Assembly: GCF_007671725.1 (NCBI RefSeq) | Contig: NZ_VCNM01000002.1 | Location: forward strand, 1,116,001-1,180,000 | Source: Halorubrum depositum | GTDB lineage: Archaea; Halobacteriota; Halobacteria; Halobacteriales; Haloferacaceae | DNA length: 64,000 nt | Direction: 5' to 3' | In this document: positions 401 through 6,945 of the stretch, one piece after another | How the letters are laid out: every line of letters begins with the position of its first letter | How positions within the stretch are numbered: the stretch's first letter is position 1 | The notes under the pieces: model-generated | The model's database searches: none | What the model was told of the DNA's origin: nothing | The model's input: only the letters and a program-made list of their open reading frames with translations | Position numbers and translations under genes: made by a program

Positions 401-1888
401 ATGAGCACTCAGGCCGCGACGGAGGAGCGGACGGTCGTGATCGGGCTGGAGGTCCACGTCCAGCTCGAGACCGACACGAAAATCTTCTGCGGCTGTTCGA
501 CGGAGCCCGAGGCGGACGAAGAACCGAACACGCGCACGTGTCCGACCTGCCTCGGCCTGCCGGGCGCGCTGCCGGTCCTCAACGAGGGCGCCGTCGAGGC
601 CGCCGTGAAGGTGGGGAAGGCGATCGACGCCGACATCCCCGAGACGACGACGTTCCACCGGAAGAACTATTACTACCCCGACCTGCCGAAGAACTTCCAG
701 CTCACCCAGTACGACGCCCCGATCTGCCAGTCAGGGGAGCTGGAGGTGCGCGTCGACAGCGAGCCCCGGACCATCGGGATCACCCGGGCGCACTTAGAGG
801 AGGACCCCGGAAGCCTCCAGCACGCCGGCGGCTCCATCGAGTCGGCGACGCACACGCTCGTCAACTACAACCGCGCCGGGACGCCCCTGATGGAGATCGT
901 CACGGAGCCCGACTTCCGGTCGCCCGCGGAGACCCGGGCGTTCCTCGCGAAGCTCGAAGAGGTCCTCGAATATCTCGGCGTCTTCGACCCGACCCGCGAC
1001 GGGAGCCTGCGCGTCGACGCCAACGTCTCCTTAGTCCCGGAAGAGGAGGTCGACGACGACGGGACGATCACCGACGAGGCCCTCGCGGACGTGAACCGCG
1101 CGGAGGTGAAGAACATCTCCAGCCACAAGGGCGCCGAGCAGGCGCTCGCGTACGAGGTCACCCGCCAGGAGAACGTGCTCCGGCGCGGCCGCGAGATCGA
1201 ACAGGAGACCCGCCACTGGGACGAGGCGCGCGGGGTCACCGTCTCGATGCGCTCGAAGGAGGCCGAGAAGGACTACCGCTACTTCCGGGAGGCGGACCTC
1301 CCCGCGCTGGAGGTGTCGGACTGGAAGGCGCGAATTCCGATCCCGGAGCTGCCGGACGCCCGCCGCGAGCGCTTCCGCGAGGAGTACGGACTCGACCGCG
1401 AGTCCGCCTCGAAGCTCACCTCGACGAAGGCGGTCGCCGACTTCTTCGAGGACGTCGCCGAGTCGTTCGACCCCGACCTCGCCGCGACGTGGGTCGCCGA
1501 CAACCTGCTCGGCGAGCTGAACTACCGCGAGATGGCGATCACGGACGTCGAGGGGCGCCTCGACGAGTTCACGCGCCTGATCGAGCTGGTCGACGCCGGG
1601 GAGCTCACGGTGAAGAACGCCGAGGAGGTCGTCCTGCGCGAGATGCTCGACGCGGGCGAGGACCCCGAGACGGTCATCGAACGCGAGGGGCTCGGCGTCG
1701 CCGAATCTGGAGAGGTCGAGACCGCCGTCGACGCCGCAATCGACGACAATCCCGACGCGGTCGCCGACTACCACGACGGCGACGAGGGAGCGATCAACTT
1801 CCTCGTCGGTCAGGTGATGCAGGAGACGGGCGGCAGCGCCGACCCCGGCGAGGTGAACGGGCTGCTCCGCGAGCGGCTGGACGGGTAA
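401..1888 (+). CDS. gatB: Aspartyl/glutamyl-tRNA(Asn/Gln) amidotransferase subunit B
   Basis: GatB is the kinase/amidotransferase subunit of the GatCAB complex, which turns Glu-tRNA(Gln) or Asp-tRNA(Asn) into the amidated form. The 495 residues match the usual family length. The N-terminal cradle starts VIGLEVHVQL and carries four zinc-ligand cysteines at C30, C32, C47 and C50 (CGC and CPTC). The middle has the family block LMEIVTEPD and the C-terminal third is the helical/YqeY-like tRNA-binding tail ending in FLVGQVM. The ATG at 401 is well placed after a weak TATA signal. gatA and gatC are not in this window. The SAMP2 gene follows after 7 bases and may be cotranscribed. Confidence 0.97.
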   Translation: MSTQAATEERTVVIGLEVHVQLETDTKIFCGCSTEPEADEEPNTRTCPTCLGLPGALPVLNEGAVEAAVKVGKAIDADIPETTTFHRKNYYYPDLPKNFQLTQYDAPICQSGELEVRVDSEPRTIGITRAHLEEDPGSLQHAGGSIESATHTLVNYNRAGTPLMEIVTEPDFRSPAETRAFLAKLEEVLEYLGVFDPTRDGSLRVDANVSLVPEEEVDDDGTITDEALADVNRAEVKNISSHKGAEQALAYEVTRQENVLRRGREIEQETRHWDEARGVTVSMRSKEAEKDYRYFREADLPALEVSDWKARIPIPELPDARRERFREEYGLDRESASKLTSTKAVADFFEDVAESFDPDLAATWVADNLLGELNYREMAITDVEGRLDEFTRLIELVDAGELTVKNAEEVVLREMLDAGEDPETVIEREGLGVAESGEVETAVDAAIDDNPDAVADYHDGDEGAINFLVGQVMQETGGSADPGEVNGLLRERLDG

Positions 1889-1895
1889 GTCCCCG

Positions 1896-2144
1896 ATGAA
1901 CGTCGCCGTCGAGGTCGTCGGCGAGGGGACCCGCGAGGTCGACCTCGCCGACGACGCGACCTACGCGGATCTCATCCGCGAGACGGGGTACCACCCGCAG
2001 GAGGCGTCGGTCCTCGTCGACGGCTCCCCGGTCCCCGGCGACCGCGTCGTCGACGCCGACGAGGTCCGACTGCTCCGGCTGATAAAAGGCGGCGCGACGG
2101 ACGGCGGCGTGCGGGACCGAACCGCGACGGACGACGGCGCGTGA
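1896..2144 (+). CDS. samp2: SAMP2-like ubiquitin-fold modifier with C-terminal extension
   Basis: Small beta-grasp protein (82 residues) of the ThiS/MoaD/ubiquitin fold. From memory, residues 1-66 align without gaps with Haloferax SAMP2, which is conjugated to protein lysines and also supplies sulfur for tRNA thiolation after activation by UbaA. The diglycine falls at 65-66 (LIKGG). In the known protein this is the C-terminus; here 16 more residues follow, so the glycine would have to be exposed by proteolysis. Residue 58, a lysine used for SAMP2 chains in Haloferax, is arginine here. The stop overlaps the next start (GTGA). ubaA lies 4 kb downstream. Confidence 0.85.
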   Translation: MNVAVEVVGEGTREVDLADDATYADLIRETGYHPQEASVLVDGSPVPGDRVVDADEVRLLRLIKGGATDGGVRDRTATDDGA

Positions 2145-2677
2145 GCGGGGAGCGCAATGCGGACGAAGCGGGCGAAGCGGACGACGCGGACGACGTCGAC
2201 GACCTCGCAACATCGGCCCCCGACGGGTTCGCGATCGGGCCCGCCGACCCCGACGACCGGCTCGACGTCCTCCGCGTGCTCGACGCCGCGATGCTGGAGA
2301 CGGAGGCCGAGACGGTCGACGCCGCGATCGACGCGGGCGACGCGCTCGTCGCCAGATTCGAACGGACGGGCGCGGTCGTCGGCGCGCTGGTCGCGACGCG
2401 CCCCGAGCCGGGGCGGCTCCACGTCGACGCCGTGGCCGTCCGGCGGGCGCGTCGCGGTCGCGGAGTCGGCTCCGCGCTCGTCGCCGCGGCGGTCCGGCGC
2501 GCCGAGCGCGACGCCGCGGTCGCGGTCGTCACCGCGGCGTTCGAGGCCGGCCTGCGGGATTTCTACGAGGGACTCGGATTCGCGGTCCGACCCGTCGACG
2601 ACGCGGACGACACCGCGGCGGGCGGATCGGACCGCCTCGCGGGGCGGGCGTCGGTAAACGGGCGCGAGCCGACGTGA
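2141..2677 (+). CDS. GNAT family N-acetyltransferase
   Basis: Predicted acetyl-CoA-dependent acyltransferase of unknown substrate. The protein is 178 residues, with a GNAT core from about residue 33. The acetyl-CoA pyrophosphate loop is visible as RRGRGVGSALV around residues 105-115, and the late motif DFYEGLGFAVR sits near 145-155. The first 30 residues are an acidic, low-complexity haloarchaeal leader. The GTG start at 2141 overlaps the stop of the SAMP2 gene by four bases, so translation is probably coupled. An ATG at 2157 lies in another frame and was not used. The substrate cannot be read from sequence. Confidence 0.85.
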   Translation: MSGERNADEAGEADDADDVDDLATSAPDGFAIGPADPDDRLDVLRVLDAAMLETEAETVDAAIDAGDALVARFERTGAVVGALVATRPEPGRLHVDAVAVRRARRGRGVGSALVAAAVRRAERDAAVAVVTAAFEAGLRDFYEGLGFAVRPVDDADDTAAGGSDRLAGRASVNGREPT

Positions 2678-6132: not shown

Positions 6133-6945
6133 ATGAGTCTCTCGCTCGACGCCGACCAGCTCGACCGGTACTCCAGGCACGTCATCATGGACGAGGTCGG
6201 CCCGGAGGGACAGCGACGCCTCCTCGACGGCAGCGCCCTCGTCATCGGGGCGGGCGGGCTCGGCGCCCCCGTCATCCAGTACCTCGCGGCCGCGGGAGTC
6301 GGGACGCTCGGGATCGTCGACGACGACGTCGTCGAGCGCTCGAACCTCCAGCGGCAGGTGGTCCACGGCGACGCCGACGTGGGCGAGCCGAAGGTCGAGT
6401 CCGCGGCGCGGTGCGTCGACCGGCTCAACCCCGACGTCGACGTGGCGACGCACGAGATCCGCCTCGACGAGGGGAACGTGCACGACCTGCTCGCCGGCCA
6501 CGACGTCGTCGTCGACTGCGCGGACAACTTCCGGACGCGGTACGTCGTCAACGACGCGGCCCGGATCGAGGGGCTACCCGTCGTCCACGGCGCGATCTAC
6601 AAGTTCGAGGGGCAGGCGACGACGCTCGTCCCCGACGGCCCCTGCTACCGGTGTCTGTTCCCGGAGGCGCCGGAGCCCGGAACGGTGCCCGACTGCGCGG
6701 CGACGGGCGTGCTCGGCGTGCTCCCGGGTACGGTCGGGTGCATCCAGGCGACCGAGGCGATCAAGCTCCTCCTCGACGCCGGGGAGACGCTCGACGGCCG
6801 GCTCCTCTTCTACGACGCGATGGACCTGACCTTCGAGACGGTCCCCTACCGCCGGAATCCGGACTGTCCGGTGTGCGGCGACGACGGCATCGAGACGATC
6901 GACGGGATAGACTACTCGGGCGGCTGTCGCGTGGACGCGGACTAG
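6133..6945 (+). CDS. ubaA: E1-like SAMP-activating adenylyltransferase
   Basis: UbaA adenylates the C-terminal glycine of SAMP modifiers and passes them on for protein conjugation, tRNA thiolation and molybdopterin synthesis. The 270 residues show the ThiF/MoeB layout: nucleotide-binding GAGGLG at 39-44, the RSNLQRQ helix at 69-75, and two zinc CxxC pairs (C171/C174 and CPVC near the C-terminus). The catalytic cysteine is C188 in VPDCAATG, the same number as reported for Haloferax UbaA. The ATG at 6133 follows a short AT-rich promoter (GATTATACG at about 6104). A SAMP2-like gene lies 4 kb upstream, but the two are not in one operon. Confidence 0.95.
   Translation: MSLSLDADQLDRYSRHVIMDEVGPEGQRRLLDGSALVIGAGGLGAPVIQYLAAAGVGTLGIVDDDVVERSNLQRQVVHGDADVGEPKVESAARCVDRLNPDVDVATHEIRLDEGNVHDLLAGHDVVVDCADNFRTRYVVNDAARIEGLPVVHGAIYKFEGQATTLVPDGPCYRCLFPEAPEPGTVPDCAATGVLGVLPGTVGCIQATEAIKLLLDAGETLDGRLLFYDAMDLTFETVPYRRNPDCPVCGDDGIETIDGIDYSGGCRVDAD

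Follow-up and report, generated by a model that had tools for sequence, protein, structure and literature searches.

The SAMP2 gene of Halorubrum depositum raises the question of how a modifier that depends on a free diglycine can work when its gene does not end there. The gene lies in the window, that is, the whole 64,000-nucleotide stretch of contig NZ_VCNM01000002.1 (positions 1,116,001 to 1,180,000) that was analysed; coordinates without a contig label refer to it. A reading of the sequence alone (the sequence-only reading) had described an extension behind the diglycine, and the analysis below examines this extension in the gene, in the genus, and in the family.

The SAMP2 core and the residues behind the diglycine

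The ORF at 1896-2144 on the forward strand, with an ATG start and a TGA stop, encodes SAMP2 as a protein of 82 residues. Its β-grasp core, residues 1-66 (1896..2093, +), ends in RLIKGG. The SAMP2 equivalog NF041919 scores 107 bits (cut-off 70) and covers residues 1-66 of 66, and the Pfam family PF21965 matches with an E value of 2.3e-29. The structure of Haloferax volcanii SAMP2, 2l32, is also matched (E 4.5e-20), as is the solved structure 4hrs. In the AlphaFold2 model, the mean pLDDT is near 92 for residues 1-60, and the elements follow each other in the β-grasp order.

The diglycine is formed by residues 65-66. The translation bears out that the LIKGG motif ends at residue 66 and that 16 residues, ATDGGVRDRTATDDGA, follow (2094..2141, +) before the TGA stop (2142..2144, +); tails of this kind are also present throughout the genus. 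The tail is predicted to be disordered, with pLDDT values below 50 at residues 66-73. The extension starts directly after the diglycine and is outside the Ubl fold, both in this model and in that of a Haloplanus fusion described below. The primary product therefore does not end in its diglycine. The same is true of 94 of 149 relatives, and the tailed protein is therefore a variant inside the SAMP2 family, not excluded from it.

The tail has the character of coding sequence. Fifteen of its 16 codons have G or C at the third position, in agreement with the high-GC3 style ascribed to it. The pooled short tails of Halorubrum (392 codons) have GC1/2/3 values of.737/.735/.929, the SAMP2 cores of the genus.802/.422/.929; in other words, GC3 is the same in tails and cores. 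The triplet periodicity of the pooled tails resembles that of the gene body. The 30 nucleotides after the stop in genomes with untailed SAMP2 have values of.649/.787/.709, with no gene-like triplet periodicity. The SAMP2 gene closes with GCG TGA, of which the last four bases, GTGA (2141-2144), contain the GTG that starts the next ORF, a GNAT acetyltransferase of 178 residues (2141..2677, +; PF00583, E 1.3e-11); this overlap had been noted. The short tails of the genus stop in GTGA in 46 of 47 cases. GNAT is the best downstream match in 47 Halorubrum genomes: the relative frame is the same in 40, different in 5, and the two genes are fused in 2. The tail thus resembles coding sequence and keeps register with the start of GNAT. 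The ORF directly upstream (401..1888, +), which we take to be gatB, is a bystander: gatB and samp2 are at separate places in most other genera.

The sequence-only reading had further pointed to the absence of Lys58, the chain-linkage lysine of Haloferax SAMP2. Residue 58 is indeed Arg. Among 149 SAMP2 proteins of the family this position is occupied by R in 77, K in 44, Q in 14, T in 12, and E in 2, and the H. volcanii K58R/K64R variant is reported to form robust conjugates still (PMC4048286). Loss of Lys58 was rejected as a mark of altered function on these two grounds. Since the doubly substituted protein conjugates, the missing lysine bears at most on chain linkage.

Tails and fusions in Halorubrum and its family

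Conservation of the tail across Halorubrum had been proposed as a check. SAMP2 was found in 49 of 52 genomes of the genus, with one match per genome, and all 49 proteins extend past the diglycine, 47 of them by 2-25 residues and 2 in frame into GNAT. An error of sequencing or assembly that deleted a stop after the diglycine in the source genome is refuted by the relatives: none of the 49 genes has a stop directly after the diglycine, and the tails carry coding-like GC3. A second, untailed SAMP2 that does the conjugation had also been considered, and a search of the source genome gave none, the next match having an E value of 0.15. The tail is therefore real, although the view of it as a peculiarity of one gene did not hold: it is genus-wide, partly family-wide, and present on other SAMPs as well.

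In the family, SAMP2 was matched in 154 of 170 genomes and its C-terminus was read in 149; the counts were made on these 149 genes, with G064, G094, G096, G160, and G082 outside them (SAMP2 of G082 ends at the diglycine). The protein is tailed in 94 and ends exactly at the diglycine in 55. The diglycine itself is present in 149 of 149, in 94 with sequence behind it; tails vary freely while the diglycine stays. The first residue after it (n=94) is A in 41, S in 29, T in 8, R in 6, G in 4, D in 2, and H, E, N, or V in 1 each, so that A or S stands directly behind the diglycine in 70 of 94 tailed proteins. Later residues of the short tails (n=431) include 71 Asp and 31 Pro. A residue preference at the putative cut site is suggested by these counts, which are inflated by kinship. 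Tails throughout the haloarchaea were considered and rejected: among 52 loci, SAMP2 of other groups, such as Haloarcula and Halosimplex, stops at the diglycine in most cases, the sole tail seen among such loci being a short one, DGRHA (L216).

In 19 of the 94 tailed genes the extension exceeds 100 residues and represents an in-frame fusion. SAMP2 is fused to GNAT in 12 of 12 Haloplanus genomes read (g18) and in 2 Halorubrum genomes, where 155 and 170 residues follow the diglycine. It is fused to an AhpC/TSA peroxiredoxin-like domain in 5 genomes (3/3 of g17, 1/1 of g15, Haloparvum, and 1/1 of g28). Both domains were confirmed by Pfam in 5 of 5 representative fusions. The model of the Haloplanus fusion shows two confident domains, with low confidence only between them, at residues 63-67, where the diglycine is located; the site would thus stay open to a protease. 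The fusion partners are also the usual neighbours: the best downstream match of samp2 at 149 loci is GNAT in 104, a peroxiredoxin-like protein in 32, and neither in 13. That samp2 and the GNAT gene (arCOG00535 with arCOG04721) are neighbours in Halobacteria has already been published, as has the occurrence of a peroxiredoxin gene beside Ubl genes in Thermococcales (PMC2948915). It should be mentioned that one of the Halorubrum fusions (L050, genome G033) contains an in-frame ATG-AGC near the old GNAT start, and GNAT could therefore be initiated internally too.

Probable processing at the diglycine: UbaA, JAMM1, and the other Ubls

The components of SAMP activation are present in the source genome. 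A UbaA-type E1, the SAMP-activating enzyme, of 270 residues is encoded in the window (6133..6945, +; PF00899; NF047750, 517 bits, cut-off 450), and a second UbaA paralogue at C2:165389-166099 is also above the NF047750 cut-off. The former lies 4 kb from samp2 and the latter near a GG Ubl and JAMM1. One UbaA is reported for H. volcanii and two for Natrialba magadii (PMC3403918). A JAMM-type protease had been suggested as an object of search, and a member of the desampylase family, JAMM1, was found at C2:168473-168898 (equivalog NF041370, 152 bits, cut-off 130). Its residues E23, H84-S-H86, S94, and D97 are invariant in the alignment and correspond to what we take to be the JAMM active-site motif, Glu ... 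HxH-x7-S-x2-D. A JAMM2-type protein, its type judged by eye from the sequence, is also encoded in the genome.

The other three GG Ubls of the source genome are all tailed, with SVGR, A, and R. They are a SAMP1-type protein (...PPVSGG-SVGR), a SAMP3-like protein (...PPVAGG-A), and a third protein (...PAASGG-R) encoded near UbaA and JAMM1. NCBIfam names both the PPVSGG and the PPVAGG protein SAMP1; the SAMP3 label of the latter rests on the Ala before the diglycine (PMC7305310). The genome also has a β-grasp protein ending in FMFCC (L195, G000:C1:399072-399341, -), of the double-cysteine type known in Halobacteria (PMC2948915).

From these features it seems quite probable that SAMP2 is made as a precursor which JAMM1 cuts after Gly66, freeing the diglycine for UbaA, and that the tail ends where it does on account of the coupled GNAT start. 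Translation would run past Gly66 up to that start and produce a short disordered tail; JAMM1 would cut after Gly66 and leave a free glycine; UbaA would then adenylate the exposed glycine for sulfur transfer and conjugation. The processing enzyme, the mature end at Gly66, and the setting of the tail end by coupling are each conclusions that we infer. In sister genera, the tail may have grown into an entire operon-neighbour protein, GNAT or peroxiredoxin, which the same cut would free. Because the tail would be removed, its length and sequence might drift nearly freely. Adenylation of the C-terminal glycine is known chemistry (PMC2948915, PMC4443979). The glycine pair must be free for function, and a cutting enzyme therefore probably has to trim the extensions first. 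HvJAMM1 is reported to cut SAMPs after the diglycine in both linear and isopeptide linkages (PMC4443979, PMC4048286), and it cuts a linear SAMP1-MoaE precisely after the diglycine, restoring activity (PMC4443979). Furthermore, CsJAMM processes SAMP precursors of Caldiarchaeum (PMC6043591), and MoaD-MoaE fusions have been proposed to require cleavage (PMC11237513).

The distribution of JAMM1 agrees with this model. The JAMM1 of the source genome, used as a query, has a match in 153 of 170 family genomes; the NF041370 profile has one in 156, of which 150 are above the cut-off. JAMM1 is matched in 93 of 94 genomes with tailed SAMP2, and 93 of 137 JAMM1-bearing genomes whose SAMP2 was read have the tail. 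Twelve JAMM1-lacking genomes had SAMP2 read: in 11 it ends at the diglycine, and in 1 (G129) it is fused. The raw Fisher p of 7e-5 for this association ignores kinship. The other Ubls behave similarly: in the 12 genomes that lack JAMM1 (G129 excluded, G160 included) none of 14 has a tail, against 31 of 62 in a 24-genome JAMM1-bearing panel (raw Fisher p 5e-4, again ignoring kinship). On the JAMM1-lacking side, 20 of 28 matches were taken, 3 without a GG end being uncounted and the 3 GG Ubls of G129 set aside (one with the tail RVAE, two ending at the diglycine); on the panel side, the 62 are the non-samp2 matches that reach model position 76. The survey covers matches that reach the diglycine in proteins other than SAMP2; among the partial matches that were read were threonyl-tRNA-synthetase-like and CC-type proteins. 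The Ubl of L260 ends at the diglycine. In total, none of 25 Ubl C-termini in 12 JAMM1-lacking genomes is tailed (G129 set aside), a count that comprises only 2-3 independent pairs.

A GatB tree of 30 genomes shows 3 changes in JAMM1 presence, 8 in SAMP2 tails, and 4 in SAMP2 fusions. The 2-3 independent pairs give a mean of 1.5 in the predicted direction and 0 against, for which a sign test is not significant. A statistical claim of JAMM1 dependence was consequently dropped, the raw p values being reduced to these few pairs. At least one tailed Ubl is present in 18 of 22 JAMM1-bearing genomes with data on the tree and in 0 of 7 JAMM1-lacking ones. The other 4 of the 22 have no tailed Ubl, which suggests that JAMM1 is retained for further functions as well, and JAMM1-bearing sisters (g6 and g21, part of the tree) also have untailed SAMP2. 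JAMM1 thus looks needed but insufficient for tails, the evidence being consistent with this and short of proof. The JAMM1-lacking genomes (G073, G097-G100, G108-G112, G159, and G160) have 1-2 non-SAMP2 GG Ubls, compared with mostly 2-3 in the JAMM1-bearing panel; perhaps they have a slimmed SAMP system.

Another enzyme, such as JAMM2, a carboxypeptidase, or proteasomal trimming, might remove the tail, and the correlation with JAMM1 would then reflect shared ancestry. We regard this as unlikely. The JAMM2-type protein of the source genome, the small number of independent JAMM1 losses, and the tails of G129, a genome in which no JAMM1 match was found, are in its favour, but purified HvJAMM2 and a relative from A. 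fulgidus were reported to be inactive (PMC4895103), and the JAMM1-lacking genomes retain a JAMM2-like match and have no tails. The fused partners are folded domains, beyond what carboxypeptidase trimming to the diglycine could deal with. G129, for its part, is a Haloplanus MAG with a completeness of only 79%, and JAMM1 is present in the remaining 11 Haloplanus genomes.

It is still less probable that the tail stays, either because SAMP2 gave up conjugation or because a non-classical E1 tolerates an internal diglycine, with the fusions being stable two-domain proteins. The fusion is stable across a genus (12/12 Haloplanus), as this explanation would have it. However, the diglycine is invariant in all 149 proteins, the source genome has kept two UbaA paralogues, and the chemistry of adenylation is known for a C-terminal glycine (PMC2948915, PMC4443979). 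Moreover, with every other GG Ubl of the source genome tailed too, the entire system would be dead if tails were not removed. Cutting of a precursor by JAMM1 is accordingly the explanation we prefer. The sequence-only reading had called for a processing protease, and this proposal is well supported by the diglycine in 149 of 149 genes, by the presence of JAMM1, and by the lack of tails where JAMM1 is lacking; the cleavage itself we infer.

Some further fusions were seen among the other Ubls of the family. In L288 (G033), L291 (G118), and L293 (G063), a PPVAGG SAMP3-like Ubl is in frame with a second domain ending in ...KAMRAGG and, if read rightly, would form a two-GG polyprotein. The second domain is perhaps the TBP-like GG protein arCOG06308, a guess made via PMC2948915; Pfam shows ThiS only. 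In L326 (G055), a Ubl ending in PSVYGG is in frame with a sequence that looks like DJ-1/PfpI, the domain being named by eye.

Relation to known precursors and possible meaning of the fusions

Precursors of ubiquitin and SUMO in eukaryotes, and ubiquitin-ribosomal protein fusions, consist of an N-terminal Ubl, a diglycine, and a tail or partner to be cut off. They differ from the haloarchaeal proteins in family and architecture, and in being cut by a cysteine protease, whereas a JAMM protease is likely in haloarchaea. The nearest counterpart of the Halorubrum depositum protein, H. volcanii SAMP2 (HVO_0202; 2l32, 4hrs; NF041919), belongs to the same family over residues 1-66, ends in RLIKGG, and is accompanied by UbaA. 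It stops at the diglycine and has Lys58; the Halorubrum protein has 16 more residues and Arg58.

SAMP precursors with a tail are a known kind, and so is the cutting of linear SAMP fusions by a JAMM protease. Caldiarchaeum subterraneum has archaeal Ubls with residues behind the diglycine, namely CsUb-pre with a 9-residue tail, Csub_C0702, and Csub_C1603, together with the JAMM-family proteases CsRpn11 and CsJAMM, which cut Ubl precursors precisely (PMC6043591). It belongs to another phylum and has other Ubl lineages, and cleavage, observed there in vitro, is a proposed step in Halorubrum; whole-protein Ubl fusions do not appear in the parts of that report consulted (PMC6043591). MoaD-MoaE and the engineered SAMP1-MoaE also have an N-terminal SAMP-type domain and are functional only after the diglycine is cut (PMC4443979, PMC11237513). 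In these, however, the partner is the Ubl's own partner in molybdopterin synthesis, and the natural archaeal cases reported are from Crenarchaeota (PMC4443979, PMC11237513); the partners of haloarchaeal SAMP2 are GNAT or peroxiredoxin. The published samp2-GNAT pair is a pair of neighbours: its tail, the GTGA coupling, and in-frame fusions were not found in the consulted parts of the main text (PMC2948915). Likewise, no account of the Halorubrum-wide tail or of natural fusions of SAMP2 to GNAT or peroxiredoxin was found in the open-access full texts covered, and the portions consulted of PMC4500146, PMC11237513, PMC3403918, PMC8305020, and PMC7305310 contain no mention of SAMP2 tails or fusions. 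The finding is solid as sequence; processing of the precursor is a proposal.

A wider role can be put forward tentatively, and we rather doubt that all of it will hold. SAMP2 might serve as a ubiquitin-style fusion leader for GNAT or a thiol peroxiredoxin, with JAMM1 freeing both products equally and setting both supplies, and JAMM1 might be lost only where all SAMPs end at the diglycine. If this is true, JAMM1 activity would set the free SAMP2 pool as well as the supply or activity of an enzyme of acetylation or peroxide defence, and JAMM1 would be dispensable only in lineages whose SAMPs all stop exactly at the diglycine. In Haloferax, whose Ubl system is the best studied among archaea, the role ascribed to the JAMM1 desampylase is chiefly that of erasing and recycling. 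Its close relatives apparently cannot produce the modifier without this enzyme, just as eukaryotic ubiquitin and SUMO depend on their proteases, and they use SAMP2 as a fusion partner. Maturation of SAMP precursors seems now testable in culturable haloarchaea, for which tailed Halorubrum and Haloplanus and the JAMM1-less Halohasta and Halonotius form natural pairs. In annotation and proteomics, the mature SAMP C-terminus in these genera should probably be sought inside the ORF.

The JAMM1 proteins of the family seemingly fall into two groups, with about 55-97% and about 41-50% identity to that of the source genome. G152 is among the genomes showing this grouping, and G155 carries one JAMM1 of each group.
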